Source: Psychroflexus torquis ATCC 700755 | Lineage (GTDB): Bacteria; Bacteroidota; Bacteroidia; Flavobacteriales; Flavobacteriaceae | DNA length: 64,000 nt | Assembly (NCBI RefSeq): GCF_000153485.2 | Contig: NC_018721.1 | Location: 4,216,001 to 4,280,000 of the forward strand | Direction of reading: 5' to 3' | Shown here: in pieces, positions 321-40,675 of the stretch | Numbering within the stretch: position 1 is the stretch's first letter | Layout: every line of letters starts with the position of its first letter | The notes under the pieces: model-generated | Databases searched by the model: none | What the model saw: only the letters and a program-made list of their open reading frames with translations | Told to the model about the DNA's origin: nothing | Position numbers and translations under genes: made by a program

Positions 321-735
321 CACACAACATCCGTATAAACTCTATTCAAACCTTCAGTAGAGGGTATATTTTTTAAATAGGTCATTTTTAATTTTGATCT
401 AAATTAATACTTCCACATATATTATCCAACAGACTTTGTATTAATCTCAAAAACTAGAGTGTTTTAACCAACGGCTTTTTGTAAACCCGTTGGTTGAATT
501 ATTGCAGCTGTCATTGGTGAATATAGCAGAGGTTTTTAAAATATTCAATAGCTACAGTTAGTTCCTGCTGGTCACCTCGCTGGTTATGAAGTTGAAAGTT
601 TCTATTTTACCAAAATAATTAAAAAAACTCAAAGAATCAGTTTTATGAATCTTTGAGTCTAGACTACTAGTGCCTCAAAATTAATGGAGAAAAGAGTGGT
701 TTTTCACCTCAGTTCTTTGTTGCCAACTGGCTTTT
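321..735 (-). repeat. LIR copy 1 (long intergenic repeat, subtype B)
   Basis: This repeat fills the gap between the AAA ATPase and higA. Its terminator half matches the other LIRs. Its gene-start half (about 321-480) is a distinct subtype shared only with the copy at 33.5 kb. It contains the inverted pair CCAACGGC...CCCGTTGG (about 470-495) and, for minus-strand transcripts, the hairpin CTCAAAG...CTTTGAG at 628-657 followed by a T run at 621-627. Confidence 0.85.
621..657 (-). terminator. Intrinsic terminator inside LIR copy 1, downstream of higA
   Basis: On the minus strand a stem of about 12 bp (CTCAAAGATTC / GAATCTTTGAG with small mismatches) is followed by seven T residues. The same structure recurs after other genes of the array (2621-2658, 17541-17577, 21455-21492). 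Confidence 0.75.
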
Positions 736-740
736 TTTAA

Positions 741-1097
741 TTAATAATCTTGAATTAAAACTTCAGTTGGAATATGAAGAGTAGTATTTAGTTTTCTAAT
801 CATATCTAATGTCAGTTTTCGCTTTTTATTCAAAATCTCACTAACTCTGCTTTTAAATCCGACAACTTCTGCTAAATCCTTTTGTTTCATTCCCAATTGT
901 TCCATTCGGAACTTAATTGCTTCAATAGGGTCAGGCATTCCAATTGGGAATTGCTCGTTTTCATATCGATCAATCAATATTGATAGGATTTCCAATTCGT
1001 CTCCTTCTTCCGTTCCTTTTTTTGCATCAAAAATATCCTCAAGTCTGTTGAGCGCTTTTTGATAATCGTTTTCGTTTCTAATTGGTAATATTTTCAT
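741..1097 (-). CDS. higA: HigA-type antitoxin, XRE helix-turn-helix
   Basis: This 118-residue protein has an acidic N-terminal half that would bind the toxin and a C-terminal XRE helix-turn-helix (about residues 62-110, KQKDLAEVVGFKSRVSEIL). That is the usual layout of HigA antitoxins paired with HigB. It follows higB by two bases, so the pair is one operon in the toxin-first order typical of HigBA. It should neutralise HigB by direct binding and repress the operon. A perfect palindrome over the promoter at 1428-1442 fits as its operator. Toxin-antitoxin genes are common stabilisers of gene-cassette arrays, which fits the repeat-bounded setting. Confidence 0.88.
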   Translation of the reverse strand: MKILPIRNENDYQKALNRLEDIFDAKKGTEEGDELEILSILIDRYENEQFPIGMPDPIEAIKFRMEQLGMKQKDLAEVVGFKSRVSEILNKKRKLTLDMIRKLNTTLHIPTEVLIQDY

Positions 1098-1099
1098 AA

Positions 1100-1393
1100 T
1101 CAGATGTTATTTGCGTCAATTTTGTCATATTCTGCATGAGTTCCAATAAACCTTATCCAGCATATTCCATATTCAAAGTTGAATTTTACAATCAAACGAT
1201 AATTATTGCCTCTGATGTTGTAAACAATTCGATTGTCCTTTAAAATACTTGCACTCGGATACTCACTTTTTAATTCGTTAATATTCTTCCATTCGGATTT
1301 TTCTGTTTCTTTATACCACGATTTTAATTGTTCTTCACAATCAGCGTGTTTTTCACAAAAATCTCGTAAAGTTCGTTTTGCGATTACTCTCAC
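1100..1393 (-). CDS. higB: HigB-type mRNA interferase toxin
   Basis: This 97-residue RelE-superfamily toxin matches the HigB_toxin family from end to end. It starts MRVIAKRTLRDFCEKH, has the central SWYKE segment and the YRLIVKFNF strand, and ends WIRFIGTHAEYDKI. Family members cleave mRNA on the ribosome. The chosen start is GTG at 1393. The ATG overlapping it by one base is in another frame and stops at once. A promoter -7 element lies only about 18 bases upstream, so the leader is very short. higA follows immediately. No catalytic residue is obviously missing, so the toxin is probably functional. Confidence 0.9.
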   Translation of the reverse strand: MRVIAKRTLRDFCEKHADCEEQLKSWYKETEKSEWKNINELKSEYPSASILKDNRIVYNIRGNNYRLIVKFNFEYGICWIRFIGTHAEYDKIDANNI

Positions 1394-1410
1394 ATTATAA
1401 TTGTTTAACC

Positions 1411-1442
1411 CAAATATAAGAAAAAAGTTACCAATTTGGTAA
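1411..1442 (-). promoter_or_regulatory. higBA promoter -7 element with palindromic operator
   Basis: On the minus strand TATATTTG (1418-1411) matches the Bacteroidetes -7 consensus TAnnTTTG. Just upstream, 1428-1442 is a perfect 15-bp palindrome, TTACCAATTTGGTAA. Its placement between the -33 and -7 regions is right for autoregulation by HigA; that function is inferred. Confidence 0.6.
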
Positions 1443-1458
1443 TTAATTTATTTTTTTA

Positions 1459-1595
1459 GCTTGTTGGCAACAACAAGTATAAGCGTAGTGAGAGATTTCG
1501 AAGCACTTACTTTCAATTTACCGTAATGTTTGTTAATTACAAGGTATTTATATTTAGACGCTTAGCCCACATTACGCTTATACAATATTGTGAGC
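1459..1595 (-). repeat. attC-like imperfect inverted repeat, site S1
   Basis: This is a 137-bp dyad between the CPBP gene and higB. The outer arms GTATAAGCGTAGTG (1478-1491) and CACATTACGCTTATAC (1568-1583) pair with small bulges, and GTTGGCAAC lies at the left edge. The sequence differs from the LIRs but has the same position: after one minus-strand gene and before the next. The shape resembles integron attC sites. I cannot compute the fold, so the assignment is tentative. Confidence 0.45.
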
Positions 1596-1607
1596 TTTTA
1601 CTTTTTT

Positions 1608-2225: not shown

Positions 2226-2239
2226 AGTTTTTGTTTTAA

Positions 2240-2705
2240 TTGCTCACAACATGGGAATAATTCAACAAATTGTGTTATTCCAATTTTATTTGCAATATAA
2301 ATTTAGTATTTTTAATCGTCTTAAAAATATTAACATTAAAAACATGCCATAAATAAACGGTGAAATCTCGGAGGCAATTAATCTACCTCTCAAATCAAAA
2401 TATTAGAGTAAAACCTTTCATAAATGCTTAAAGAATAACCTAGTAACACTAATAGATATATTGAGTTATAGATGCTATTAGGCAAATCAATAGTTGATTA
2501 AAGGCCTACAATGCCCTTGGATTGGAAAACCAACGGGTTTGTAAAAACCCGCTGGTCTCCCCGTTGGTTATGAAGCTGAAAGTTTCTGTTTTGCCTAGAT
2601 ATAGGTAGAAGAATAAACAATAAAAAAACTCAAAGAATCACAAATGTGAATCTTTGAGCCTAGACTATTATCGTTTCAAAATTAATGGAGAAAAGAGTTG
2701 TTTTT
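2240..2705 (-). repeat. LIR copy 2 (subtype A, complete)
   Basis: This complete copy lies between the CPBP gene and the first GNAT gene. At its gene-start end it has the palindrome GGAATAATTCAAC...GTGTTATTCC (about 2250-2281). The arms differ from other copies but still pair, because the substitutions are compensatory. In the middle is CCAACGGG...CCGTTGG (2543-2577). The terminator hairpin is at 2629-2658 with an A run on the plus strand at 2621-2628. Confidence 0.88.
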
Positions 2706-2709
2706 TACT

Positions 2710-3267
2710 TCAATTCTTTGTTATGGGTAGTTCTTTATGATCCAATTTTGAATAAATATCCAAACTAATGAATTCACCATTTTTAATTTCGCAATCTTTC
2801 ATAGTTCCTTCAAAACTGAATTTCAGTTTTGCAAGTGCCTTTTTACAATTCATATTTTCAGTTTCCACAAATCCCTCAATCCTATGCAGTCCAATTTTGT
2901 CAAATGCGTAAGTAAAGATAAGTGGCATGGTTTCAGTCATAAATCCTTTTCCCCAGTTCTCTGGTAATAACCAAAACCCAATTTCAGCTTTTTTATTTTC
3001 TTTATTTAAGTCGTTTAAACCTCCTGCGCCAAGAAATTTTCCATCAACTTTAGAGCATATCGCCCACCAAATCCCATTTTGGTTTTTTTCAAGATTAGAA
3101 AACCATTGCATTTGTTCTTTGGTTGCTTCTAAACTATCGAAACTAATACCGTAATACTTTATAATATCAGGATGAGAAAGCCCTTTAAAAACATCTTCTA
3201 AATCAGAATCAACAAATTGCCTGAGAATCGTTCTTTCTGATTCTAAAGTTGGGAAATTATCTTTCAT
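2710..3267 (-). CDS. GNAT-family N-acetyltransferase (RimJ/RimL type), copy 1
   Basis: This 185-residue protein matches the Acetyltransf_3 (RimJ/RimL/RimI) fold. An N-terminal ERTILRQF strand is followed by the acetyl-CoA loop around residues 95-125 (GFWLLPENWGKGFMTE) and the GLHRIEGFVETEN segment typical of protein N-alpha-acetyltransferases. The acceptor cannot be named from sequence. A second copy at 22641-23177 is about 93 percent identical, and both are followed upstream by the same secreted-protein gene, so the two genes were duplicated together. This copy has seven extra C-terminal residues (ELPITKN), produced where the duplicated block ends next to a LIR. Confidence 0.88.
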   Translation of the reverse strand: MKDNFPTLESERTILRQFVDSDLEDVFKGLSHPDIIKYYGISFDSLEATKEQMQWFSNLEKNQNGIWWAICSKVDGKFLGAGGLNDLNKENKKAEIGFWLLPENWGKGFMTETMPLIFTYAFDKIGLHRIEGFVETENMNCKKALAKLKFSFEGTMKDCEIKNGEFISLDIYSKLDHKELPITKN

Positions 3268-3282
3268 TTAGAGTTTTTTTTT

Positions 3283-3426
3283 AATGACTTACAAGGTTGC
3301 CTGTATGGTTAGTGATGTATATAAATCAGTACATTTTTCTGAAAATGTTAAACTTAATTTAATGGTCTTAACTTTTGTGTTTTGCCATTAGAAAACCATT
3401 GACTATACAGATTGTTATAAGGCGTT
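3283..3426 (-). repeat. attC-like inverted repeat, site S2 (between duplicated genes)
   Basis: Imperfect arms CCTGTATGGTTAGTG (3300-3314) and ACCATTGACTATACAG pair across about 90 bp. GTTATAAGGCG lies at the gene-proximal edge, right after the stop of the 3427 gene. A near-identical site (S6, 23195-23337) sits in the duplicate block, and a related arm pair is at 18395-18535. Position and form resemble a cassette recombination site. Confidence 0.5.
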
Positions 3427-4059
3427 TTATAGTATCGGTTTCCAAATTTCATTTACTGGTTTTTTACCTGTAATCATTTCTAATAATTGAATTAAATATT
3501 GATTTTCTTCTTCACCATTGTCTTCAATCATTTTTTTAAATGCCATTGCACCAACTGGGAATATGGAAGTTAAATCAATTTTCCAATTATTACTTTCCTT
3601 ATAGAAATGAAAGTAAAAGGGAGCTTTTTGTCCATTCGAAATAAGCTGCCCTTTAGCAAAATTTTTATCGATTTCAACATCTCCAATTTCAGTATTCATT
3701 ACGCTGTTTTTTCCAACCATTCCTTCTTTAATAGCGTAAATTAATAGTTCTTTCCCATTGAATGATAAAATATCTCTTTTTGATGTTCTATACCTGATTG
3801 ATATAACCATTAACTTGTCAAGAATTCCTAATGAATTTAGAGTCAAAGAATCTGCCTTTTTAGTTGTTTCAAGAATTTCATTATAATAAGATATTGTTTT
3901 ACTGTCAACAAAATCTACTGCTTTTTCTCCTTTGTCATTTAAAATTGAAGTTTTATAGCTGTTAAATGATTCTCTTACTAATTTCTCTTCTTTTTCTTGT
4001 CCAAGACAACATGTAATTATTGACAATGATAGGAATAGGCTACTTAATATTTTTTTCAT
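3427..4059 (-). CDS. Secreted protein of unknown function, copy 1
   Basis: This 210-residue protein has a clear N-terminal signal peptide ending near residue 20 (SIITCCLGQ). It is probably exported to the periplasm, and the two cysteines could also allow lipidation. I do not recognise the family. The spacing of the helical N-terminal part and the later strands (KGQLISNGQKAPFYFHFY) is reminiscent of SnoaL/NTF2-like folds, but that is a guess. A copy about 95 percent identical lies at 23338-23970. Differences cluster in the signal peptide, where selection is weakest. A MITE is inserted 20 bp upstream of the start and may affect expression. Confidence 0.7.
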   Translation of the reverse strand: MKKILSSLFLSLSIITCCLGQEKEEKLVRESFNSYKTSILNDKGEKAVDFVDSKTISYYNEILETTKKADSLTLNSLGILDKLMVISIRYRTSKRDILSFNGKELLIYAIKEGMVGKNSVMNTEIGDVEIDKNFAKGQLISNGQKAPFYFHFYKESNNWKIDLTSIFPVGAMAFKKMIEDNGEEENQYLIQLLEMITGKKPVNEIWKPIL

Positions 4060-4079
4060 GCTTTTTATTTAATGACTTA

Positions 4080-4286
4080 TACAAAGTATATTTATAATGC
4101 CGTATGAATAAATTGAATTATACTACGACGTAGCTCAGCACAGGTTTTTTGATGGATTGAAATTAAAAATAATTAGCATAGCCTTAGCTACGGTAATTAT
4201 TTTTCATAAAAAGCAGGTGAAAAAAGCCTGTGCCGAATTCGTTTCGGTAAAATGATTTATTGCGACATTATAGGTCTAATTTGGTA
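4080..4286 (+). mobile_element. MITE copy 1 (TNA-duplicating palindromic element)
   Basis: This 207-bp element has imperfect terminal inverted repeats of about 34 bp (consensus TACCAAATTA...TAATTTGGTA) and TTA target duplications on both sides. The whole element is nearly palindromic, with inner arms CAGCACAGG...CCTGTGC and a CAAAAATAA/TTATTTTTG pair. No coding capacity. The left terminal repeat here is mutated (TACAAAG). Confidence 0.85.
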
Positions 4287-4299
4287 TTATAGCGGTTTG

Positions 4300-4445: not shown

Positions 4446-4476
4446 TTTTTTTGTACTCGAGTATGCCTTTTATCGG

Positions 4477-5625: not shown

Positions 5626-5749
5626 AATTTAGAAAAATATTTAGCAAATTTAACTTTTAAATCGATATAACAATCTGTAAGTCAGTTAGTATTTATTGAA
5701 AGAGTTAAATTATTAATTTTGTGACCGATTTTTTTCAAAGATGATGTGG

Positions 5750-6180
5750 AACCTATGCATAACACAACTTGTTGTGTTATGCATTTTTATCAAAAATCTA
5801 ATATATTAACTTTTTATCGTCTTAAAAGTCTTAACACTAAGAACATGCTTTAATAAACTCTAAAATCCCGTAGGCAATTAACCTCTCAAATCACCCTATT
5901 TGATTATACCTTATTATAAAGGCTTCTTTAGCTACTAATCCTTAAATCAATAGCTAATTAATGGCCTCTAAAAACTCTACAATTACCTTAGATTAGAGAA
6001 CCAATGGCCTTTTGTAAACCCGTTGTTCTCTCCGTTGGTTATAAAGTTAAAGGTTTCGGTTTTGCCTAGGTAAATAGAGAAAAAAAACTCAGAGAATCAC
6101 AAAGGTGAATTTATAAACCTAGAATTAGGGTACCAAAATTAAAGTAGAAAAGAGTTGTTTTTTACCTCAGTTCTTTGCTG
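5750..6180 (-). repeat. LIR copy 3 (subtype A)
   Basis: This copy lies upstream of the kinase gene and downstream of the 6188 gene. At 5755-5784 is the best palindrome of the family: arms ATGCATAACACAAC and GTTGTGTTATGCAT are perfect over 14 bp around a 2-base loop. The terminator hairpin is weak in this copy (CTCAGAGAATC...), so read-through is likelier here. Confidence 0.87.
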
Positions 6181-8055: not shown

Positions 8056-8235
8056 TTTCAATGTGGCGTTACCTATGGAAAACACAAAAAGTTGTATTAT
8101 CCAAATTATCAAGTAACTAATATAAGAACTTTCTATCGTCTTAAAAGTCTTAACACTAAGAACATGCTTTAATAAACACTGAAACCTCGGAACTAATTAA
8201 TCTACCTCTCAAATCACAAATTTGAGTACACTCAT
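8056..8235 (-). repeat. LIR copy 4, truncated (gene-start half only)
   Basis: The first 180 bp match the gene-start half of the other LIRs (GGAAAACACAAAAAG palindrome remnant, ATCGTCTTAAAAG, AACATGCTTTAATAAAC). Similarity then stops, and there is no terminator half. The truncation coincides with the change to the acyl-CoA ligase gene, which does not look like array cargo. Confidence 0.8.
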
Positions 8236-8620
8236 CTATAAATTTTGTTTTCTAGCATCTAAAAGTCAGATCAAAGACTACGTTATGTATTAATTGTTTA
8301 AGGTTTTAATACCCATAAATTGAAGGAATCTGGATAATAAGATCAACATCTATTTGCATTCTACAGACGTTTTATGGCGACAGAATTTCTAATTTGAGTA
8401 TTTATTGAAGACTAAAATATTTTATGCTTAGGGAATCTTACGCGAGGAGCAAGTAATACCAATTTTTGCATTTCAGCAAACACAGAAAAGGAAATCAATT
8501 CTTTTCTGTGTTCTGAAAAAATAGTTAACCTGCTTTTCGACTTCTAATTTTCGCGATTATTAGTTGAATTCAAAAATTACTATTTGACAAAACTATAGTC
8601 ATCCGTTGATTTATAGCATT
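8236..8620. other. Intergenic, no gene; hairpin at 8480-8513
   Basis: No coding region is supported. AACACAGAAAAG (8480-8491) pairs perfectly with CTTTTCTGTGTT (8502-8513). This is a plausible transcription terminator for the ligase gene, although the T run on the minus strand is short. Confidence 0.5.
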
Positions 8621-10417: not shown

Positions 10418-10832
10418 TTATAATTTAGCTTTTTATATTTTGAAATCTTAACTAATATAGTGGCATAAAGATACGAAGATTTACTGCGATTAGAGAAGGT
10501 AAGCGGAATATAAAAACCACTGCGCTACTTCAGTAGTGTTGTCTGTTCTCAGGGAAAACATATCCATTTTTTAAAAAAAATAGCCATGAATTTGATTCGC
10601 CTGTTGCTGCTGTTCGGGTCTAAAAAAACACGATAACAAAACTCAAAGAATCACGAATATAAATCTATAAGTCAAGAATAATAGTTTCTCAAGATTAATA
10701 AAGAAAAGTGTTGTTTTTTAGCTCAATCTTTTGCTGGTAAATCGTAGTCTGTTTTCTATAATTGATAGCTTTAAGGTTTTGTTAAATTCCCATTTTCGAA
10801 GTAGACTTTCCATTGTTCAATTAGTGCAGCTT
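10418..10832. repeat. Intergenic with LIR copy 5 (terminator half only, 10622-10740)
   Basis: Positions 10418-10620 hold the leader of the ligase gene with nothing recognisable. Positions 10622-10740 match the terminator half of the LIRs (AACTCAAAGAATCACG...GATTAATAAAGAAAAGTG). Together with the half copy at 8056-8235, the ligase gene is bracketed by one complementary pair of LIR halves. The remaining 90 bp are empty. Confidence 0.7.
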
Positions 10833-11632: not shown

Positions 11633-12868
11633 TTATTTTTTTCTTATCATTTTTACTGAAAACCATCCGAGCAATAAAATTATTATTGTCATGATTGTCC
11701 ATAGCCAATTTTTGTTTTTGAAAAGGGGGTCCGTTACCGGAACTTCCTCCCTTTCAATTGTTTGTTCGTTACCTAATTCTATCGCTGTTATTGTCTCTGG
11801 AATCTTGTCTGTAAATCGGTTAATGTCATAATATGCTTTTACTGCTTTGCTTTTTCCGTAGGTTAGGTAATAGGTTGCTGGCTCAGTAAAGCGAGTTACT
11901 AATTCATGAACGTTCCCTTTTATCTGGATTTTATCAAGAGTCAAAGATTGATTATCTTGATTATGAATAACTATTTTTAGTTTTTGAATTATCAAACTGT
12001 TGGTTTTAAACTCATTTTTTTCAAATGAGTTTAGTGTTCCCATAGTTAAATTGCGGTAATTATATGTCCATCCTTGTTCCGTTTGTACACTATCTGAAAG
12101 GTATTTTATTGTCAATGGCCGATAATAGTCAAATGAGTTAATCGCATTAATTTTAATATAACTTACAGGAACAGGAGATTGCAATTCGATGTCTACTATT
12201 GTCTGCTTGGTTTCTTTATTCTCTTTTGTAAGCGTTTTCTTAATAGGATAATCTCTAAACACACCTTCTGTAATGTTTTGTCGTGTAATACTAATAGATT
12301 TTAAATCAGGCTTTTCTCTACTGTTCACTACAAGAAATCTAAAAAAACGGTACTTCGAATTTGGAAAGCTTAGTTTGCTAAATTGGAAGTCTGTTAATTC
12401 ATTTTTGATTGCTAAAATTCGATAATCATCAATAATGGTAAACCATTCTTGTTGATTTTGACTCCCTTCTAGTTTAAGTTGCCAGTCAAAATTTTGCTGC
12501 TTAAATTTTAGTTTGATTTGATTAATTGTTTCTATTGAAGGAATTTCAAAAGTAAAAAAATAACCTTTGTCACTACGAGAGGTGTTCAGTATTTTAAAAA
12601 CTGCTTCTTTGCTAGATAGCTCATCTGTTAGTGTACGAAGCAAGTAAGGTGATTCAATAGTATCATTACTTGCTGTTATACCAAAAACTCTAATATCAGA
12701 TAAGTCTGGTGAAACCTTTTCGAAAATGTCATTTGGCAAAACTATTTTGTGCCATTGCTTATTAATTCCTTTTAATTCTCTTTTGTTGCTATACTGTTGC
12801 ATTTGTCCATGTGAATATGAAAATGCTAGCAGAAATAAGGAAATAGTTATTTTAATTCTCAATCTCAT
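11633..12868 (-). CDS. DUF3999 family membrane-anchored protein
   Basis: This 411-residue protein has an N-terminal signal peptide (SLFLLAFSYSHGQ), a large beta-rich exported region and a single C-terminal membrane anchor (WTIMTIIILLLGWFSV) followed by MIRKK. That layout and its position directly after a DUF2339 gene match DUF3999, a family of unknown function that is nearly always the DUF2339 partner. The start overlaps the end of the DUF2339 gene by 17 bp, suggesting translational coupling. Because the upstream partner is broken by an intron and a stop codon, translation of this gene may be reduced. Confidence 0.8.
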   Translation of the reverse strand: MRLRIKITISLFLLAFSYSHGQMQQYSNKRELKGINKQWHKIVLPNDIFEKVSPDLSDIRVFGITASNDTIESPYLLRTLTDELSSKEAVFKILNTSRSDKGYFFTFEIPSIETINQIKLKFKQQNFDWQLKLEGSQNQQEWFTIIDDYRILAIKNELTDFQFSKLSFPNSKYRFFRFLVVNSREKPDLKSISITRQNITEGVFRDYPIKKTLTKENKETKQTIVDIELQSPVPVSYIKINAINSFDYYRPLTIKYLSDSVQTEQGWTYNYRNLTMGTLNSFEKNEFKTNSLIIQKLKIVIHNQDNQSLTLDKIQIKGNVHELVTRFTEPATYYLTYGKSKAVKAYYDINRFTDKIPETITAIELGNEQTIEREEVPVTDPLFKNKNWLWTIMTIIILLLGWFSVKMIRKK

Positions 12869-14114
12869 CAGATATAATATGCTTGTTTTTGTTGTATAAA
12901 AATGAAATAATTAAAAGCAGAATTCCTAACGATACAAATACAATTGTTTTTGCAATGGTGTTAAGATGCGAAATATCATATAAAAAAAGCTTTATAAGTG
13001 TTATTCCAAACAGTATAATAGCTCCAACTCGTAAGTGTTTCTTGTTTTTCCAAATGCCCAAAACTATAAGTAATAATGAATAAACTCCCCAAAGAATACT
13101 CAGTCCAAGTTTGTAGGATTCTTTATATTCTGCAATATCCATCCAATTTATTAATTCGCTGCTGAAAATCCATATTGTAGAGATATGGAGGATAAAATCA
13201 AATATTTTTTTAAAATTTCGATGCATAAATTTTTGCCTTGTAGCCTTATAACACATAAAAAGTGTGATAGCTATGAATACAAATGAAACATATCTTATGC
13301 CAATATTAAAAACTCCAGATTTATAGTATTCTAATAAGGATTGATCTAAATAGGTTTCGCGTAATTCGCTAAAGGCATAAAGACCTTGAGTTAAAAAGAC
13401 AAGCATGGTAAACGCAATTAAACTGAAAGTGATTAACCCCACCTTTTTATCTTGTAATTTCCTTGTATTCAAAAAAGATAAAACCGAAACAAAAAGTAAA
13501 GAATAATCAATAATCCATATTGTTTTAAAGTGGCTAATGTCGTAGTTTCTATAGAAGTTATAATATTGATCACTTTCTGAATTGATTGAAAGAGCAGAAT
13601 CTATATACAGTTGATCCCAATAATTTGCTATCTCCATCCTAAAGGCATAATAAATAGTTATAAACAGCATTGCAGGAATGGAAAAGTATATGATTTTAGA
13701 AAATCTTTTTTTTAAGATGAAAGCGTGAGAATAGTTTTTATTTCTATTCAGAAAATTGATAAATCCAAAAGCTGCAATAAATAATAGAGATGTAAGAAAA
13801 TTGATATTAAGCAGAGGAGTTATTCTTGTTTCTGGTTGCTCTACATAATAACCATCATAGACAGTTGTCCAGTCTTGGAAAATGCTGAAAAATGCTAAAA
13901 ACATTAAAATATAAGATAGATCTTCATAAATGGCAATAGCTTTTGTCCTTCCTATCCAAAATAGTAAAGCTGCTTCTCCAATCCATAATAACGTAACCTA
14001 GTTACCATCTAATTGTACGGGAATTGTAATGGTAATAAATACCAATACCAAACCAGATACTAAATAAAATAGGTTTTTATCTGCTAATTTTTGTTTGTAA
14101 ATTATTGCACTAAC
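12852..14114 (-). pseudogene. DUF2339 membrane protein, exon 2 (with internal stop)
   Basis: This is the second part of the DUF2339 gene, downstream of the group II intron. Reading from 14114, the protein continues VSAIIYKQKLADK and then a series of about ten membrane segments to the natural stop at 12852. An in-frame TAG at 13998-14000 interrupts TIPVQLDGN-VTLLWIGEA. The family has tryptophan there, so a single TGG-to-TAG change killed the frame. ATG at 13904 could restart only the last 350 residues. DUF2339 proteins are polytopic membrane proteins of unknown role. Confidence 0.85.
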
Positions 14115-17182: not shown

Positions 17183-17640
17183 AATGTGAAGCAACGTATG
17201 GATAACTCAACAAGTTGTGTTATCTCCATTTTATTATTCATATAAACTTAGTGATTTTTTTATTGTCTTAAAAATATTAACATTAAAAACATGCTTTGAT
17301 AAACGGTGAAATCTCGAAGGCAATTAATCTACATATCAAATCACACTATTAGAGTACACTCTATAATAAATTCTTTTTTATTGCTACTCATAGGCAAATC
17401 AATAGCTGTTTAATGGTCTCCAATAGCCCTACAATTAACTTGGATTGGATAACCAACGGCTTTTTGTAAACCCGTGGGTTACACTGTTGGTTATGAAGTT
17501 GAAAGTTTCTATTTTGTCTATATAATTAAAAGTATAAACAAAAAAAACTCAAAGAATCACAAATGTGAATCTTTGAGTCTAGACTACTAGTGTCTCAAAA
17601 TTAATGGAGAAAAGAATTGTTTTTTATCAAAGCTATTTTT
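17183..17640 (-). repeat. LIR copy 6 (subtype A, complete)
   Basis: Gene-start palindrome GGATAACTCAAC...GTTGTGTTATC is at about 17198-17222. The CCAACGGC...CCGTGGG pair is near 17452-17478. The terminator hairpin CTCAAAGAATCACA...TGTGAATCTTTGAG is at 17548-17577 with an eight-base A run on the plus strand. It separates the DUF2339 gene from the 17733 lipoprotein gene. Confidence 0.9.
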
Positions 17641-18394: not shown

Positions 18395-18535
18395 TATTTT
18401 GTAAAGTTTACTGCATGATTAGTGGCGTATTAAAGTGCCGAAACTTTAAATTTATTACAGAATTTAATTGAATAAACAGAATCTTAAATCTAGCAAAAAA
18501 TAGTCATTAATTATACAGATTGTTGGCAATAGTTT
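18395..18535 (-). repeat. attC-like inverted repeat, site S5
   Basis: CTGCATGATTAGTG (about 18411-18424) pairs with the complement of CATTAATTATACAG (about 18507-18520). The gene-side edge is GATTGTTGGCAATAG just after the serine hydrolase stop codon. The arm CTGTATAATTAATG is close to the arms of S2 and S6, so these three form one sequence family. The bases from 18168 to 18394 upstream hold nothing recognisable. Confidence 0.45.
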
Positions 18536-19687: not shown

Positions 19688-19722
19688 ATTTTTTCAAATG
19701 TTATATCTCGCTTTTAATTAGA

Positions 19723-20300
19723 GCCAACATACGGATAACACAACTTGTTCTGTTATCTATACGTTACAAAATAACCAATATAAGAACTTTTTATCGTCTT
19801 AAAATTTTTAACATTAATAATATTCTTTAGTCTCTATTGGTTTAATTCCCAGAGGCTTGCCTCGAGTTTTGAGGAAAGTTTGAAAACGGATGATTTTCAT
19901 CAATCAAAAAAAAGCCCTCTAAATGCCTCGTGGGCTGGCCCCGAGGATTCTATACTAAATGCTGAAATCTAGGGGACCACTAATCTAACTCTCAAGTTAA
20001 AATATTAAAGTACACTCCATTATAAATGTTTTAAAATATAACCAAGTAACACTTATAGATATGTTGAATTACAGCTACTCATAGACAAATCAATAGCTGT
20101 TTAATGGTCTCCAATGGTTTTACAATCACTGGTTTTACCAAAACCAAGTGGTCTCCCTGTTGGTTATAAAGTTGAAAGTTTTTGTTTTACCTGCATAAAT
20201 GTAAAAAACACAAAAAATCAAGAATGTGAATCTCTAATACTGAACTACTTCAGTATCAACATTAATAGAGAAAAAAATGATTTTTACCTCAGTTCTTTCC
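19723..20300 (-). repeat. LIR copy 7 with a nested insertion
   Basis: This is a full LIR with the gene-start palindrome GATAACACAAC/GTTCTGTTATC at about 19734-19757. The copy is interrupted at 19831 and resumes at about 19956, so an element of about 125 bp is inserted in it. The terminator half (about 20200-20245) is degenerate. Confidence 0.82.
19831..19957. repeat. REP-like palindromic insert inside LIR copy 7
   Basis: Two GC-richer hairpins lie at the ends: AGAGGCTTGCCTCGAG and GCCTCGTGGGCTGGCCCCG. They are about 80 bp apart in a region far more GC-rich than its surroundings. REP elements mobilised by Y1 (RAYT) transposases look like this, but no such transposase is in the window. Confidence 0.55.
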
Positions 20301-21064: not shown

Positions 21065-21091
21065 TTAATCACGATTATTTTTTAAATAAAG

Positions 21092-21550
21092 GCCAACATA
21101 CTGATAACAGAACAAATTATGTTATCCATTTTATGGATAGAATAAATTTAGTGTTTTTTTATCATCTTAAAATTTTTAACATTAAAAACATGCTTTAGTC
21201 AACCTTGAAATCTAGGAGCTAATAAGCCTACTTCTCAAACCACACTATTAAAGTACGTTCTATTACAAATGCTTTAAGAAAAATCTCGAAACACATATTA
21301 AAAATGCTGTTTTATAGCTGGTGATAGGAAAATCAATAGCTCTACAATTGCACTACAGTGGTTTGTATTGAAAACCCAGCTGTTTTTTTTTTGCAAATCC
21401 GTTGGTTATAAATTAAAGGAGTTCTGTTCTGCTTAGATAATGAAAAGTATAAACAAAAAAGCTCAAAGAATCGGTTTCACGAATCCTTGAGCCAAGACTA
21501 CTAGTCTTTTCGATTAAAGTAAAAAAAAATTGTTTTACCTCAGTTCTTTT
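21092..21550 (-). repeat. LIR copy 8 (subtype A)
   Basis: The palindrome GATAACAGAAC...TATGTTATC starts near 21102. The terminator hairpin at 21461-21492 has GCTCAA.../...TTGAGC. Here both arms gained a closing G-C pair, another compensatory change. It ends next to a degenerate MITE rather than a gene. Confidence 0.87.
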
Positions 21551-22415: not shown

Positions 22416-22504
22416 GGTGATTGGGTTTAAGGATTATTATTTCAAAGGTGAATTCAATAGTTATACCATAAAGGAGTTGAAGCTTAATTTTTGTTTTTTT
22501 TATT

Positions 22505-22570
22505 AAAAGTAACCTAGGGATAACACCACAAATTATGTTATCCCCATTTTATTGATAAAAATGGACTAGA
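22505..22570 (-). repeat. LIR remnant 9 (palindrome only)
   Basis: Only the gene-start palindrome survives, with AGGGATAACACCAC...TATGTTATCCCC at about 22516-22543. It retains pairing through the extra G-C pairs at its base. The rest of the LIR up to the second GNAT gene is missing. Confidence 0.65.
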
Positions 22571-22640
22571 GAAAGTTCCTTCAGAATTTTATAGATAAGC
22601 GCTTACCAAAGTAATCAATTGTATCCCGTGTTTTAAGGCC

Positions 22641-23177: not shown

Positions 23178-23194
23178 TTAGAGTTTATTTTTTA

Positions 23195-23337
23195 ATGACT
23201 TTTAGGTTTGCCTGTATAGTTGGTGATATTTATAAATCACTATATTTTTCTGTAAATATTAGACTTAATTTAATGGGCTTAACTTTTGTGTTTTGCCATC
23301 AAAAAATCATTGAGTATTCAGACTGATGCAAGGCGCT
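23195..23337 (-). repeat. attC-like inverted repeat, site S6 (duplicate of S2)
   Basis: This corresponds base for base to S2 with scattered changes. The arms are CCTGTATAGTTGGTG and CATTGAGTATTCAG, and the gene-side edge is GATGCAAGGCGC, where S2 has GTTATAAGGCG. The better left arm and worse right arm show independent drift since duplication. Confidence 0.5.
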
Positions 23338-23970: not shown

Positions 23971-24193
23971 ACTTTTTGTTTAATAATTTACAACGCTAAA
24001 GCAATGATTCGTGATGCCTAGAAATCTGACAGATTTCCAGTTACGTGCAAAGCAAAAACTTTTAGTTATGCTTTATTTTTTTTGTCTAAAGCAAAAATAA
24101 AAGTTTTTGTGACTTCATAAATGTACATAGATCTCGGCCTAAACATCGAAGTCAAGATTAATTATAGGTGTTATTACCGATCGTTTATTATTT

Positions 24194-24669: not shown

Positions 24670-24940
24670 TTTATGTTTTGCAACGTATTGATGTTGCAAA
24701 ACAAGATGAGTAATCCATATTATACAGTAACTAATATAAGAACTTTTTACCGTCTTAAAAGTCTTAACATTAAAAACATACTTTAATAAACGCTGAAATC
24801 TCGGAGGTAATTAATCTACCCCGTAAACCACACTATAAGAGTACACCCTATTATAAATGCTTAAAGAATAAACAACAAAAAATTCAAAGAATTAATAATG
24901 TGAATCTCTAATACCAATTAAACCTACAACGTCGCAGTAA
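24670..24940 (-). repeat. LIR copy 10, shortened
   Basis: The palindrome at the gene-start end has been replaced by GCAACGTATTGATGTTGC (about 24679-24696), itself an inverted repeat. The middle (ACCGTCTTAAAAGTC ... AACATACTTTAATAAACGC) is conserved. About 150 bp before the terminator half are missing, and the hairpin is degenerate (TTCAAAGAATTAATAATGTG). Nothing else is seen up to 25006. Confidence 0.78.
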
Positions 24941-27831: not shown

Positions 27832-28299
27832 TTATAAACTAAACCATTTGTTAACAACATAAATGAGTCTAATACTTTGTGATATCTGAATGGCCGATGT
27901 GTAGTTTACTCCGGCTATTCTAATGGTTTTTCCATTTGGGTTAACGGATGTATCGTCCCCATCCGCATAAATCAAGATGTTTTGTCCATCAATAGGATTT
28001 ACAGGTAATGTAATGGTGATTGTTCCAGAAGTTGCTACTACTTGGTTATCCGTATTTAAGGTTGAATTTGCAGACACTATGCTAGTAGCCAAATAGCTTG
28101 TAGGTACCTTGCTAGTGGCTAAATTGCTTGCACGTGTAGAATAAACTATTTCATTGGTAGCTCGATCGTAAAATAAGGGAACATCCCCAGAACCAAAATC
28201 GCCTTCCCTAATAGGCGCTACGTAAAAACCTGACGCCCGTGCACCAAAAGGCATTCCGCTTGCGTCTATCACAATAGAATTTGGGGATTGGAAGGTACC

Positions 28300-28960
28300 A
28301 GCTCCTGTTCCTATTGCAATTGCGTATTCTCCTTGATTTTTTTCACCAGCTCCTGTTCCTATTGCAATTGCGTATTCTCCTTGATTGTTTTCACCAGCAA
28401 ATCGACCTAATGCGATCGCGTCTTCTCCTTGACTGGATGAACCAGCACCTTCACCTACCGCGATCGCTCCAAATCCTTGCTGGTCTCCACCAGCACTTAC
28501 GCCTAACGCGATTGCGGAAGATCTTTGGGTGTTATTACCAGCTCCTGTTCCCTATTGCAATTGGCGTTTTCTCCTTGGGTGGTGCGAGCAAACAAAAAAG
28601 ACCTAACGCGATTGCGGAAGATCCTTGACTGAATGAACCAGCATTTACGCCTAACGCGATCGCGTCTTCTCCTTGGGTGCTACTACCAGCAAATCGACCT
28701 AACGCGATTGCGGAAGATCCTTGACTGAATGAACCAGCATTTACGCCTAACGCGATCGCGTCTTCTCCTTGGGTGCTACTACCAGCAAATCGACCTAACG
28801 CGATTGCGGAAGATCCTTGATTGTCTCTACCAGCAGATTGACCTACCGCGATCGCGTCTTCTCCTTGATTGTCGCTACCAGCAGATTGACCTACCGCGAT
28901 CGCGGCATCTCCTTGTGTTGTTTTACCAGCTGAAGTTCCTAATGCTATTGAGCTAATCCC
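28300..28960 (-). repeat. 45/48-bp coding tandem repeat (YadA-head type)
   Basis: About 14 imperfect units of roughly 48 bp contain AACGCGATCGCGTC or AACGCGATTGCGG. A higher-order unit of 96 bp is repeated exactly at about 28612-28707 and 28708-28803. Each unit encodes AIALG-xx-AG-xxx-QG. This is coding minisatellite DNA and not a CRISPR. Confidence 0.85.
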
Positions 28961-29169
28961 TTGTGGTGTTTCACCAGCCTCAAAACCAATAGCAAAAGAA
29001 TTATTTGTCTGAGATGCCGCATATATATCAGCAAATTTTAAACTTAATGTTTCATCATCCACGAATTTCTTTGTGACATATTCTTGATCATTTCCAAATG
29101 ATGTCTGATCTGTTGTAAAAGGGCCTACAATACTTGTATTGTCAGCTGTAGCGGTTATATTTTGTGTTT

Positions 29170-29660
29170 TGCTAGCATTATCTGATATTCCGGTAACATT
29201 AGTTGCTATTGCGCTAGCATTATCTGATATTCCGCTAACATTAGTTGTTATATCGGTAACATTAGTTCCTATTCCGCTAGCATTATCTGATATTCCGGTA
29301 ACATTAGTTGCTATTCCGCTAGCATTAGTTGCTATATCGGTAACATTATCTGATATTCCAGTAATATTAGTTGCTATGGCTGTAGTATTATCTGATATTC
29401 CAGTAACATTAGTTGCTATATCGGTAGCATTATCTGATATTCTGGTAACATTAGTTGCTATTCCGGTAAAATTAGTTGCTATATCGGTAACATTAGTTGC
29501 TATGGCTGTAGCATTATCTGATATTCCGGTAACATTAGTTCCTATGGATGTATTAGCAGTTGTTATATCGGCAGTATTATCTGATATATCAGTAACATTA
29601 GTTGCTATATTGGTATTAGCAGTTCCTATATCGGTAGCATTCGTTATAATGTCATTAGCA
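29170..29660 (-). repeat. 21-bp coding tandem repeat (stalk region)
   Basis: Roughly 22 units of about 21 bp alternate GCTATTCCGGTAACATTAGT and GCATTATCTGATATTCC variants. They encode alternating NVTGISD / NATAIAT heptads, consistent with a left-handed coiled-coil stalk. Confidence 0.8.
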
Positions 29661-30357
29661 TTTGTTGAAATTGCAGTAGCACTTGTTATAATAGCATCTC
29701 CATTTGTTCTTACTTGTCCATCTAAAGCTTGGGTTGCATCTACTAAAGAAGTAGCAGCATTGATGTAGTTTGTGTTTGCATTGGTCGTATAGGTTCCGTC
29801 TAAATTTAAACCAGCACCTGTTTGAGTGGCATCTAATTCGGATTGAATCGCGTCAGTGGTAGTTGTGTTAGCTGGTCCTGTTAAACCTATTTCTCCTTGA
29901 ATACCTTGAGCACCTGTATCTCCTTGCGGTCCTATTGGCCCCGGAATAGAGCTTCCTGAGGTTTTAGCATACAAGGCATAAGGTACACTCATTAACTGTG
30001 TTGTTCCAGTAATGGTGTAACTTGTGCCTCCCATTGGATCTGTTTCTGTTTTTATAAAATAGGTGTCATCTGCCCAATCAATTGCAGAAAAATCGCCAGA
30101 AGTTGCTCCTGTTCCTATTTCTAAACTTACTAATCCGTTGGCATTGGTCGTTGGTGTTTGTGTTTCTACATAAACGGTTGTTCCTGTTGCAGCTCCTTGT
30201 AGTATGCTAATTTGCATTCCTACGGCTTGTGTTGCTACTAATGCATTATTTGCATCTCTTAAGACGGCTTGATAACTCATTTTTTCTGGACTTTGTGCCC
30301 ATACCATTGCAGTCATTAGTAATACTGTTGCTATTGTAAATATTCTTTTCATTATTT

Positions 30358-30905: not shown

Positions 30906-31166
30906 TTAACGAAAATATAACTTAAATTTATATTGTTTTAAATTGCTATGATTTTGTGGGTCTAAATCTGTCTTAAGGCTTTTTCCTGTTCCATAGGTGT
31001 AAAGTGTCATGGATGCTTCAAGGCTCACCATTGTTGCTTTTAAAGCTTTGAGATAAGTTCTTTGTATACTACTACTGGAATACTGCCTGCCAGTTTGCCC
31101 CTCGAACAAACAGTAAGCTGGCTTATAAATCTTGTAACATTCTCGAAGTAATTCTAACAGATGCTT
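30906..31166 (-). pseudogene. Tyrosine recombinase (integrase) remnant
   Basis: The reading frame LLELLRECYKIYKPAYC continues into LFEGQTGRQYSSSSIQRTYL and KALKAT. This is the typical lead-in to the catalytic domain of Bacteroidetes tyrosine integrases (family pattern YLFEGQTGGxYSxxSIQ). The HTLRHSFATH box that should follow is degraded to TLYTYGTG, and the catalytic Arg/His and Tyr are lost. An in-frame stop precedes the fragment. It is the only recombinase trace in the cassette-like region. The pattern is of the general Xer-like integrase type, not IntI. Confidence 0.6.
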
Positions 31167-31249
31167 TTAAACTAGTGGATAAGCAGATTTTTCAATAGCT
31201 AATAATTAGTGCATTTCACTACTGCTTTTTAGGGGCAACATGTCTTTCA

Positions 31250-33524: not shown

Positions 33525-33834
33525 TGCTTGTTTACAACATCCATATAAACTCTATTTAAATCTTCATTATAGGGCATATATCTTTTAAGTAGAATATTTA
33601 AATTTTGATCCAAACTAACACTTTCACATATATTATCCAACAGACTTTAGATTAATCTCAAAAACTAGAGTGTTTTTAACCAACGGCTTTTTGTAATCCC
33701 GTTGGTTCAATTATTGGAGCTGTCATTGGTGAATATAGCAGATGTTTAAAATATTTAATAGCTACCCTTAGTTCCCGCTGGTCACCTCGTTGTTTATGAA
33801 GTTGAAAGTTTCCGTTTTACCAGGATAATCAATA
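33525..33834 (-). repeat. LIR copy 11 (subtype B), broken at the terminator half
   Basis: About 310 bp match LIR copy 1 (321-735) closely, including CAACATCC-TATAAACTCTATT, ATATTATCCAACAGACTTT and CCAACGGC...CCCGTTGG. At about 33834 the match ends abruptly, before the terminator hairpin, and runs into the remnant of a lipoprotein gene. Confidence 0.85.
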
Positions 33835-33835
33835 C

Positions 33836-34078
33836 GCTCAAAACCGGTTCATAACCTAAATCAATTAAGTTCGGAAGAATTGGCTCGAAACAATTTTTGA
33901 AATCAATTTGGTCAGTTTTGCAGATTTGGTTCTCAAAAAACACCGCTATTTTTTGTAAATCCGCAATTTGGTCGGCTGAAAAATGAATTTTTAATTCAGG
34001 CGTTGAGTATTGACTTTTTATAAGACAAATTTAAAATTAGAATAAGTAAAATTAATTTTCTCAATGTCTTTTTAGTAT
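33836..34078 (-). pseudogene. Lipoprotein gene remnant
   Basis: Minus-strand sequence reads a signal-like KKTLRKLILLILILNLS, then after a frameshift SQYSTPELKIHFSADQIADL and KIAVFFENQICKTDQ, ending at the LIR junction in GYEPVLS. A 5' gene half is thus joined to LIR copy 11 in place of its own 3' end. The right side is cut by a MITE. Function unknown. Confidence 0.55.
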
Positions 34079-34080
34079 TA

Positions 34081-34292
34081 TACCAAATTATATTTATAAT
34101 GCCGCACGAATAAATTGAATTATACGACGATGTAGCTCAGTACAGGTTTTTTGATTGATTGATTGAAATCAAAAATAACTAGCATAGCATTAGCTACGGT
34201 AATTATTTTTGATGAAAAGCAGGCGAAAAAAGCCAGTGCCGAATTCGTATCGGTAAAACGATTTATTGCGACATTATTGGTCTAATTTGGTA
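34081..34292 (+). mobile_element. MITE copy (212 bp)
   Basis: Ends TACCAAATTA/TAATTTGGTA, flanked by TTA on each side. It has three GATT units before AAATCAAAAATAAC. The left flank is the lipoprotein remnant and the right flank is an IS3 transposase fragment, so the element marks a junction between unrelated sequences. Confidence 0.9.
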
Positions 34293-34295
34293 TTA

Positions 34296-34418
34296 TATGA
34301 GTCTATTGATAGCTACATGTATTGGTATAATACCAAAAGATTAAATTCTAGTTTAGGATATCTCTCACCTCTAGAAATGAAAATAAAATTGAGAGGATTT
34401 ATTAAAAAAGTAGCTTAA
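34296..34418 (+). pseudogene. IS3-family transposase OrfB, C-terminal fragment 1
   Basis: It reads YESIDSYMYWYNTKRLNSSL, then GYLSPLEMKIKLRG, to the natural stop. This is the last 40 residues of an rve-type IS3 (IS150-group-like) transposase, starting exactly at the MITE edge. Confidence 0.8.
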
Positions 34419-34877: not shown

Positions 34878-34889
34878 ATTCTTATAAAA

Positions 34890-36844: not shown

Positions 36845-37141
36845 TTTTTTTCTATAATAATTTATAATAACTTATATTAAGACGAACGAACTTAAAGTTT
36901 GTTACAGTTCAGCAATCAGTTTTTAAATTACTAGCGACGGGTATTATAGGGCAAGTAGAGCGGTAAAAAGCGATACGTCTTTAATTTTACACTGAGCCAA
37001 AATGGTGTAACTTGATTTTAATTGATTCATTCTTAAAAGCCAAATCAAATAGATTTGGAGAACTTAGTTTAAGGCTCTAAACTTTGGGTTAATCACCAAA
37101 ACCCGTATTAACTATAGCCATTGTTTCACTTTCGTGTTCTT

Positions 37142-38062: not shown

Positions 38063-38082
38063 TGATTATAAGTTTTTTTTAC

Positions 38083-38420
38083 ATGAAGCACAAAATATGG
38101 ACAATATAATAAGTTGTGTTATTCTCATTTCAGTAACAGTATAAATTTAGTGATTTTTTTATTGTCTTAAAAGTCTTAACATTAAAAACATGCTTTAATA
38201 AATGCTGAAATATTGGAAGTAATTAATCTATATCTCAAACCACAACATTAGATTACACTCTATTGTAAAAGAATCTTAAAATGCTTTTTACTAGCTACTA
38301 ATAGACTAATCAATAGCTAATTAATGGCCTCCAATGGCTTCACAATTACCTTGAAATAGAAAACCAACGTTAAGACTAACGGCTTTTTATAAACTCGTTA
38401 ATCTTAACCTTGGTTATGAA
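38083..38420 (-). repeat. LIR copy 12, without terminator half
   Basis: The gene-start palindrome is GACAATATAATAAGTTGTG-TTATTC at about 38099-38126. The conserved middle is intact (TTGTCTTAAAAGTC, AACATGCTTTAATAAATGC), and an extra duplication, CCAACGTTAAGACTAACGGC, lies near 38363-38382. At GTTATGAAGTTTAAAATTAC similarity stops and an eroded membrane-protein gene begins. Confidence 0.83.
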
Positions 38421-38424
38421 GTTT

Positions 38425-38615
38425 AAAATTACTTCAATTACAATAATTATTAGCGCATTTATTCCACCAATTGTATTGCTGATTTGCCCTGTCTGACTAA
38501 AATCAAAATCACTCTAATATACAGGTATAGTAAAAGCAAATAAACTTCCAATTAAAATAAGCACAACTCTTATATAGTTAAAAATGGATTTATTTAACCC
38601 CTACATTTATTTTTC
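38425..38615 (-). pseudogene. Small membrane protein remnant
   Basis: The minus-strand frame reads NKSIFNYIRVVLILIGSLFA, then FTIPVY, TAG, SDFDFSQTGQISNTI and GGINALIIIVIEVILNF. It has two hydrophobic helices separated by a nonsense codon and no start. Gene family unknown. Between it and 38700, GGGCTAACC (38628) and GTTAGC (38684) form the ends of a 60-bp attC-like segment. Confidence 0.5.
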
Positions 38616-38767
38616 TAATAAGGGCTAACCTTAGGACATAGTAGAAGTAGAGTTCTACCAACTTTACCATTTTTATTATGATGTTAGCAAACGTACTTTC
38701 TTAAAACCTACTTATTAAATTTTATAGCAATTGCCTTTTTTCCACGTTTATACATTATTGCGGACTT

Positions 38768-39887
38768 GAATTCAACTAATAAATGCAACTTTTAGATTTG
38801 ATTATTATAGCTACTTTTTCAAAACAAGAAAGAGGAAAATATTCCTCTTTCTTGTTTTGATGGAAAGGTTATTTTTACAGCATCAAATCGCCAAAAAAGA
38901 AGTTGCAATGAGTCACCTTACCAAAGAACAAAGATATACAATATCTGTAATGCGCAAAGAAGGCTATAACCATAGAGCTATTGCAGAAAGTATAGACAAA
39001 GACAAGTCAGTAATTAGTCGAGAGCTAAAGCGTAATAAGGATCAAAGAAGCGGTGAATATCGCTATGAATTAGCTGTGAAAAAGTGTCGCGAGAGACATA
39101 AAACAAAACCTAAACAGATTTGTTTTACAAATGAAATAAAAACAGCTTCAGAAAGGCTTTTAAAGTTAGATTATAGTCCAGAACAGGTAGTAGGGATATT
39201 AAAGAAACACCAAGAACCTAGTGTAAGTGTTGAAACACTTTATCAACATATCTGGAATGATAAAAAACATAAAGGAACCCTACATAAGCATCTAAGACAT
39301 CAAGGCAGGCGTTATCGTAAAAGAGGCGCAGCAAAGGATTCTAGGGGTATTATAAAAGACAGGGTAAGTATAGAAAAACGACCTAGTAAAGTGGAGCTCA
39401 GAGATCGCTTTGGAGATCTTGAAGTGGATTTGATAATAGGTAAAAATCACAATCAAGCTATTCTAACAATTAATGATAGAAGCTCTGGAATGCTTAAAAT
39501 GAAAAAAGTTCCTTCTAAAGAATCCAAAGGGGTAGGCTTAGCAATCATAGATTTATTAGAGGATTGGAAACCTTATTTGAAAACTATTACAGCGGATAAT
39601 GGAAAAGAGTTTGCAGACCACCTTGTGGTAGCGCAAGAGCTAAATATAGATTATTATTTTGCAAGACCTTATCACTCCTGGGAACGGGGTTCAAACGAAA
39701 ACCTAAACGGACTGATAAGACAATATTTACCTAAAAAAACAGACTTTACAAAAATCACTGATTACCAAGTAAAACAGATACAAGAGAAATTAAATCTAAG
39801 ACCTAGAAAAAGGTTCAATTATGAAAATCCTATATTTGTAATGGATCAATTATTATTTAACCCAGAAGTTGCATTTATGACTTGAAT
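38768..39887 (+). mobile_element. IS30-family insertion sequence, copy 1 (intact)
   Basis: About 1.12 kb long, with inverted repeats containing ATTCAA-CTnATAAATGCAACTT at both ends (left near 38768, right near 39862-39887). It carries one intact transposase. It lies inside the tandem-domain gene. A second, decayed copy is at 48400-49505. Confidence 0.88.
38908..39885 (+). CDS. IS30-family transposase
   Basis: Start ATG at 38908 (MSHLTKEQRYTISVMRKEG) gives 325 residues. An N-terminal helix-turn-helix of the IS30 type (NHRAIAESIDKDKSVISREL) is followed by the DDE integrase core: DLEVDLIIGKNHNQAIL with the first Asp, TITADNGKEFADH with the second, and WERGSNENLNGLIRQYLPK with the catalytic Glu. 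All catalytic residues are present and the frame is open, so the element may be active. An in-frame upstream start at 38857 is less likely because it reads from near the inverted repeat. Confidence 0.92.
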   Translation: MSHLTKEQRYTISVMRKEGYNHRAIAESIDKDKSVISRELKRNKDQRSGEYRYELAVKKCRERHKTKPKQICFTNEIKTASERLLKLDYSPEQVVGILKKHQEPSVSVETLYQHIWNDKKHKGTLHKHLRHQGRRYRKRGAAKDSRGIIKDRVSIEKRPSKVELRDRFGDLEVDLIIGKNHNQAILTINDRSSGMLKMKKVPSKESKGVGLAIIDLLEDWKPYLKTITADNGKEFADHLVVAQELNIDYYFARPYHSWERGSNENLNGLIRQYLPKKTDFTKITDYQVKQIQEKLNLRPRKRFNYENPIFVMDQLLFNPEVAFMT

Positions 39888-40514
39888 CCGGCGGATATTT
39901 GTTTTCTCCAAAATTTCTTTTCCATTTTTTTCGCAAACTTCAATAAATCTTGTTCAATACTATTATTTATTAAACCTCCCGTTAAAGCAGATTTCCACTT
40001 AATTCCTCCCCTAATTTTTTTTATGAAATCATAGTCTTTTATAGGTTCACTCATCACAAAGAAAGGAATTGCCTCAATTTTTTGAACTACGGCAATTCTG
40101 TCATTTTCAGGAGTTTTTTCGTCCGTAAACTTTATTGCAGTCATTTGTTTTCCGTTTGTATAAATTACTGCGTCAAATTTTATATTTTCATATTTGTATT
40201 GTTTAGCTAATTTATTAATATACTTACTCACCTTTGTAGCTATACTTTCATTTACCAATCCTCCAGTAATAACAGAACCCCATTGTATTCCTTTTCCACC
40301 TCCTTTTAAAGTTTCATATTCTCTTACAGGTTCTGCCAATAAATAAACTTCGATTCCATTTACTTTTTGAACTTTCGATTTAATTTGTGCAACACTATTC
40401 AGCGTAATAAATAATACTAAAATTGATAATACTTTTCTCATACTTTTAATTTTCCTTTTGTTTTGATTTGTGAATAATTACTTTTTTCAATTTATAATTT
40501 TGACTGGTTTTCAA

Positions 40515-40675
40515 TCGCATATTTGCTAACGCGTTTGTATATTATTTGTTGCGTTGATCGGACAACCAATTTAATATTTGCAAACTGAATAGAAAATCCA
40601 AGAGTTCCTCCGCTTCGGGATTCCTAAGTGGAGAATAACTTACGATTAATTTTACACGCGTTGTACACCTTAATT
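40515..40675 (-). repeat. attC-like imperfect dyad, site S8
   Basis: TTTGCTAACGCGTTTGTATA (40530-40549) and, at the far edge, TTTTACACGCGTTGTACACC pair through AACGCG/CGCGTT and the A/T step. A second internal pair is TGTTGCGTTGATCG/CGATTAATTTTAC. GCTAACGCG...ACGCGTTGT is the most attC-like pair in the window. It sits upstream of the broken 38708 gene and is the right-hand end of the cassette-like region. Confidence 0.5.

Follow-up and report, generated by a model that had tools for sequence, protein, structure and literature searches.

What has assembled the one-directional gene array in the first 40.7 kb of this stretch of Psychroflexus torquis ATCC 700755, and what are the repeats, termed LIR, that recur at its gene borders? 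The window, i.e. the whole stretch of 64,000 bp analysed here, comprises bases 4216001-4280000 of the complete 4,321,832-bp chromosome of this Psychroflexus-group flavobacterium, hereafter the host. A first-pass annotation had proposed an integron-type, co-oriented array, and this proposal is supported by attC-like dyads, by relatives in which a recombinase gene, an attI and an array stand together, and by cassettes bounded at G|TT. Judged from the sequence, we place at roughly 0.78 the probability that the array represents a decaying segment of a chromosomal integron from a Bacteroidota-type lineage, in which the LIRs are scattered attI copies joined to the end of an insertion sequence (IS) of the IS110 family.

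Composition and placement of the LIR

The LIR looks like a composite of an IS110-family element end and the 3'-terminal codons of an integrase gene with attI, stopping at G|TT. Its left end reads AAC|AAAGAACTGAGGTAAAAAACAACTC, and most of the 54 left ends listed come after ..AAC. In the relatives G005 (two copies) and G008 (one copy) the same AAC|AAAGAACTGAGGTAAAAAACAACTC marks the end of an element of 1296-1297 bp that has IS110-family domains; for the full-length G005 element PF01548 (DEDD transposase) and PF02371 (Transposase_20) both score above the cut-off, and transposase codons are present in some LIRs. The element lies inside an attC-like site just after the R'' box, at one insertion point and in one orientation in all three full-length copies examined. 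The joined flanks of one copy match an IS-free site of the relative G010 over nearly the full length. The host itself has 20 matches to the IS110-family transposase, mostly broken, with one open over 337 codons (1509666-1510637 of the chromosome).

Right ends are of two types. Type 1 consists of the hairpin GGATAACACAA-CTTG-TTGTGTTATCC followed by TACG|TT, and it also sits directly 3' of the stop codon of an integrase gene of which the host has a broken form (near 6.1 kb). The type-1 integrase is split over two frames in G008; in G022 it is open, comprises 375 aa and reaches the hairpin at the contig end. Type 2 ends in TTTATACGGATG|TT and aligns to the last codons and attI of the host's intact 382-aa integrase gene. 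An 86-bp type-2 query was found at at least 28 places in the host, two of them in the window and 16 over at least 75 bp (query included; 40 of 64 candidates scored). Since the right half of the LIR corresponds to an integrase 3' end with attI, the LIRs would be scattered attI copies at attC positions. Of the 30 type-1 right ends, 24 retain G|TT (background over 22 nt, 0.31), and the genes directly after it differ between copies. A separate array at 748-800 kb of the host (L181-L183) has type-2 attI at its junctions: 44 kb hold 9 copies, which share one direction.

A LIR profile built from 11 full copies finds 11 places in the window, with E-values down to 2e-127, and a type-2 copy at 33.5 kb brings the number to 12, the count given earlier and far above chance. 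All are on the minus strand. Full type-1 copies lie at 2242..2708, 5745..6165 (kept together with its downstream gene in G022), 17190..17626 and 21091..21539, and one with a ~120-bp interruption, seen as two profile matches, at 19721..20288. Partial type-1 copies are the right (attI) part alone at 8064..8273, a right part at 24678..24871 and a right plus middle part at 38088..38430, in which GTT is changed to TTT. A left (IS) end stands alone at 10626..10719, and another lies beyond the main array at 63190..63304. The type-2 LIR at 328..707 combines an IS110-family end (564-707, profile match) with integrase 3' codons and a type-2 attI that stops at G|TT near 328, and the copy at 33538..33832 retains the right part with attI2 GGATG|TTG; both are backed by the attI2 motif, a genome-wide match and alignment to the 3' end of the intact type-2 integrase gene. 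A right-end remnant of hairpin and R' at 22487..22576 (minus strand, repeat family D17) has no profile match of its own and is common to G022, including the downstream gene.

The orientation of LIRs with the genes was confirmed on a larger set. A same-direction open reading frame (ORF) ends within 150 bp before 29 of 34 left ends (opposite direction 1, none 4), and a same-direction ORF follows within 300 bp after 28 of 30 right ends (opposite 2). Host stretches picked for containing LIRs gave 65 profile matches, some LIRs being counted twice, and most of these matches are grouped near 1.22-1.26, 1.57, 2.92-2.96, 3.45-3.50 and 4.20-4.25 Mb. Among relatives a LIR query matched 6 of 59 genomes (7 of 60 including the host): G016 and G022 well, G005, G008 and G027 chiefly at one end, and G052 very weakly. 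No match was found in plasmid and phage collections.

Recombinase, attI and attC-like sites

The integron-integrase profile matches 22 of the 27 genomes of the genus at E 1e-30, the host included, in open frames of 308-638 aa. The curated integron-integrase cut-off is reached by none of the 27 (228 bits vs 265), and the IntI extra domain (2a3v residues 186-247) has no counterpart (62 residues vs 18). What relatives of the host carry are IntI/Xer-like tyrosine recombinases without this domain. A form of ~600 aa has three additional N-terminal modules, to which Pfam gives weak, unrelated names at most. Besides its intact integrase (type 2) the host has one broken integrase and, within the window, one type-2 relic of 54 aa at 31032..31193 on the minus strand (tblastn 68.5%, E 5e-16); this relic is the only integrase trace in the window, and the reported absence of a canonical IntI is supported. 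The search for the integrase in viral contigs gave one weak locus with 23% identity. Xer proteins were considered as the array recombinase and are not favoured: the host's two Xer-like proteins pair apart from the array integrases (8 open forks, long branches). A profile search of 395 Bacteroidota genomes matched 204 at 1e-40, a figure not usable as a count because the search mixes the recombinase with Xer-like proteins. At the 23 readable loci among 25 from this search, 13 attC-like sites were found on the integrase strand and 0 on the other.

Mostly small, mostly co-oriented ORFs start immediately after the ~600-aa gene in G010 (a complete genome) and in G011 and continue for 44 and 34 kb, respectively, up to the end of the stretch read. 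Of 14 distinct loci with sufficient sequence (L147, where the sequence ended too early, was left out), 13 have an attI, GATATATACTAG|TT or a close variant, ~30-60 bases past the stop codon of the ~600-aa gene. Among them are loci of Algoriphagus formosus, Mesonia hippocampi and a Vicingaceae metagenome-assembled genome (MAG); the locus of a Chlorobi MAG has no conserved attI. Past the GTT of attI the sequence is mostly locus-specific, with G010 and G003 starting alike, and the attI of the host's intact gene is conserved with G022 as far as G|TT. An 882-bp segment of G010 is present at attI and, 100% identical, 9.2 kb farther on. It starts as ACTA|GTTGTAAAAC at one place and as GACC|GTTGTAAAAC at the other, and ends as CAAACGTT|gcc and CAAACGTT|agtc. 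As read from the two copies, this is the pattern expected from cassette insertion. A cassette of ~500 bp is repeated with borders likewise at G|TT. Cassette bounds at G|TT and apparent movement between attI and attC are thus found in G010, and in the window such bounds are seen at LIR right ends only.

The attC-like sites of G010 and G011 begin with ..AAC (R'') and close with ..CGTT (R'); between these lie two arms, the left one containing AAT and the right one ACT, separated by a loop. A scanner for the arms finds 12 (G010) and 11 (G011) sites on the gene strand, as against 1.0 and 0.8 in shuffles. With the same scanner in its strict form, host positions 3.45-3.50 Mb give 6 vs 0.8, whereas at 4.195-4.216 Mb the gene strand has none and the opposite strand 1. 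Covariation was examined in 25 sites from other genomes, where the inner pairs were selection criteria and carry less weight; at the unselected columns 18-145 and 19-144, respectively, 24 and 25 of the 25 rows are paired, and double changes number 13 and 15. Just beyond GTT, pairing of the bases with R'' is poor (11 and 15 of 25), as would follow from an exchange at G|TT. The long loop (A4 columns 34-129) is similar across species in at least one pair (G005 C1:845574 and G010 C1:1062158), so the loop may matter.

Model R1, a covariance model from sites of other genomes only and none from the host, finds three clear and two weak sites (E 0.57 and 1.2) in the window, all on the gene strand (minus) and within 1-24 kb; 41-64 kb gave no matches. 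The clear sites each lie just 3' of a gene: 1464..1598 after the CPBP gene (62.9 bits, E 5.9e-11; arm scanner 15.3), 3288..3425 after gene 3427-4059 (52.5 bits, E 7.7e-9) and 18398..18533 after gene 18536-19687 (51.6 bits, E 1.2e-8). The weak site at 23199..23336 (13.9 bits, E 0.57) is the duplicate of 3288-3425 and belongs to a duplicated unit. The proposal of dyads as gene borders is therefore upheld in part, by three short dyads that are clearly attC-like, with two more being weak. In 442 kb of other host stretches R1 gave 24 matches at E 0.01, and all 23 with known direction run with the neighbouring LIR, integrase or array. No match at E<=5 was found in 100 kb of Escherichia coli K-12. 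Genome-wide searches, whose E-values are rough, gave at least 63 matches in the host and 4-83 in every one of the 27 genomes of the genus, where 122 candidates were scored in each. With equally rough E-values, at 1e-4 at least one match was present in 91 of 158 sampled Bacteroidota (20 candidates scored per genome), genomes with a single match being doubtful.

Gene content and other elements of the window

Within 1-40.7 kb all ORFs of at least 100 aa lie on the minus strand (frames overlapping a longer ORF omitted), in agreement with the layout first described, with the sole exception of 38857-39885. This ORF falls within a multi-copy element of ~1.14 kb, copies of which lie at 38764-39898 and 48389-49504 of the window and at 3476809-3477950 of the chromosome. 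The cargo was rightly described as cassette-like, as judged from its Pfam families. It includes a HigB toxin and a helix-turn-helix antitoxin, which form a higBA-type unit at 741..1393 on the minus strand (PF09907 E 2.8e-33, PF01381), CPBP and GNAT proteins, a histidine kinase, an AMP-binding enzyme, a beta-lactamase-fold hydrolase and DUF2971. For six of the 20 cargo ORFs scanned, Pfam gave nothing at E 0.001.

Another dispersed repeat family, whose members are ~170-230 bp long and contain an imperfect dyad as well as short runs of GATT, occurs at 4077-4291, 27017-27188, 34078-34297, 45586-46028, 54348-54517 and 62956-63177. These longer dyads had also been taken for recombination sites, a view that did not hold: the family is separate from the attC-like sites, occurs in array and backbone alike and has one reversed copy. 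A group II intron at 14113-16064 is one of four near-identical host copies. Targeting of attC by this intron was considered and rejected, as the window copy appears to be inserted in a DUF2339 gene (piece 12855-13904). Long tandem repeats (48 and 21 bp) at 28262-29739 lie within a 605-aa ORF (28535-30352) and immediately beyond its 3' end. In the backbone part of the window a thiamine pyrophosphate riboswitch and two Flavo-1 RNAs lie at 42416-42510, 44708-44789 and 53381-53458.

Competing explanations and known systems

In the proposed system, as seen in the sequences of relatives, a tyrosine recombinase gene is followed by attI ~30-60 bp past its stop and then by cassettes in the same direction. 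Each cassette consists of a gene and an attC-like site, with R'' (..AAC) just after the stop codon and R' (G|TT) closing the cassette, and the recombinase would insert and excise cassettes at G|TT. The host system would be an aged one, with one integrase broken, the second-type one intact, a relic in the window and few short attC-like sites remaining. Many junctions hold a LIR, with the IS110-family end right after R'' and the integrase 3' end and attI reaching G|TT on the opposite side; class 1 integrons are reported to have functional delta-attI cassettes, and by analogy LIRs may be able to act as cassette borders. We read this as a new integron variant, integron-like in its working and with a recombinase that fails one defining IntI test, and it is probably widespread in Bacteroidota. 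A more far-reaching combination is doubtful: a phylum-wide Bacteroidota integron lineage, overlooked because its integrase has no IntI domain, would read folded attC via DRD/HARP-like modules, and a host IS110-family element landing after R'' would have acquired attI and would carry it to gene 3' ends, its transposition making new cassette borders.

Several observations weigh against the decaying-integron reading. The strict arm scanner finds 2 sites in the window vs 1.4 in shuffles, which is no excess. A two-gene unit at 2731..4079 (minus strand) has a second copy at 22641-23990 (94%) with different borders on both sides, and a simple cassette of gene and attC does not explain this. Conservation of some LIRs extends to the downstream gene, and that of some left ends to the upstream one. 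GTT is lost in 6 of 30 type-1 right ends. The type-1 right half minus its hairpin has no significant match to an integrase gene (best at the right place E 4.7), so the type-1 assignment is drawn from position and from the type-2 alignment. At the type-2 array right ends an IS end lies within 330 nt in 5 of 9 and is absent in 4 of 9.

It is unlikely that the LIR is merely a non-autonomous IS110-family relative inserting between genes, in an old genomic island whose genes were exchanged by homologous recombination between repeats. The left end and the transposase codons do match the IS, the IS inserts into attC-like sites, and some borders of related units lie inside the repeat or at its left end. 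Against this, LIR right ends show G|TT and a new gene with no IS right end and no residual attC, they correspond to the integrase 3' end with attI, and the same arrays contain attC-like sites and integrase relics. The first-pass annotation had named movement of the LIR itself, rather than of genes between LIRs, as evidence against a cassette array, and here the outcome is mixed: in relatives the IS enters existing attC-like sites, while different genes start exactly at the G|TT of LIR right ends.

That the LIR is one long functional attC, as originally suggested, is very improbable and largely refuted, though the composite could act as an attC. It does stand after gene ends and between R''-like and R'-like boxes; however, its ends trace to an IS110-family end after R'' and to an integrase 3' end with attI, each half is found elsewhere without the other, and canonical sites in the same arrays measure about 135-140 nt. 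Scarcely credible, and largely refuted by the repeated 882-bp cassette, the attI ends borne by LIRs and the R1 sites, is the view that no cassette system exists and that ordinary accessory genes, terminators and chance dyads suffice: the strict scanner result and the weak excess of a looser scanner (11 vs 4.6 in shuffles, 4 on the other strand) favour it, but the three clear R1 matches are all 3' of genes with none in 41-64 kb, and the 23 directed matches elsewhere in the host follow gene direction.

If functional, the system favoured here would add a large stock of mobile genes that have so far gone unread, would offer a natural test of the parts by which an integrase recognises folded DNA, and might show how attI or attC sites reach new genes; an attI carried by an IS would, if true, provide a specific explanation of how genes turn into cassettes, which is an open question. 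A literature search, with subscription journals mostly outside it, gave no account of this integron lineage. Integrons are described as rare in Bacteroidetes (PMC9024848), and a review counts Bacteroidota among the integron-bearing phyla (PMC8618304). The reported rarity contrasts with attC-like model matches in all 27 genomes of the genus and in 91 of 158 sampled Bacteroidota.

As in sedentary chromosomal integrons and in clusters of attC sites lacking integrases (CALINs), there are an integrase-linked attI, co-oriented arrays, folded attC-like sites, R''/R' boxes and G|TT borders, and as in CALINs there are attC clusters distant from an integrase. A CALIN has at least two attC and no nearby integrase, and the window holds three attC-like sites by R1 with an integrase relic only. 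Unlike in sedentary chromosomal integrons, the recombinase has no IntI extra domain, has other N-terminal parts and is encoded in the direction of the cassettes, and attI copies are spread through the array. The sites have the R''/R' boxes and imperfect folded arms of an attC, yet differ from classical sites in an A.C mismatch in the arms and a loop of about 74-79 nt or longer. Unlike XerC/XerD/XerA, the recombinase is linked to attI and arrays. The IS resembles the IS1111-attC group (Tetu and Holmes 2008, as cited in PMC11187229) in its DEDD transposase and in its single place and orientation in attC; it differs in that its targets are Bacteroidota attC-like sites, and its domains place it in the IS110/IS1111 family. 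Other IS110/IS1111 members have a guide RNA from the non-coding region that matches the target (PMC11187229). In delta-attI cassettes of class 1 integrons, reported as functional (PMC12901181), genes are bordered by attI and not by attC. Genes are likewise bordered by attI here, but with dozens of putatively functional attI per genome, fused to an IS end and integrase codons.

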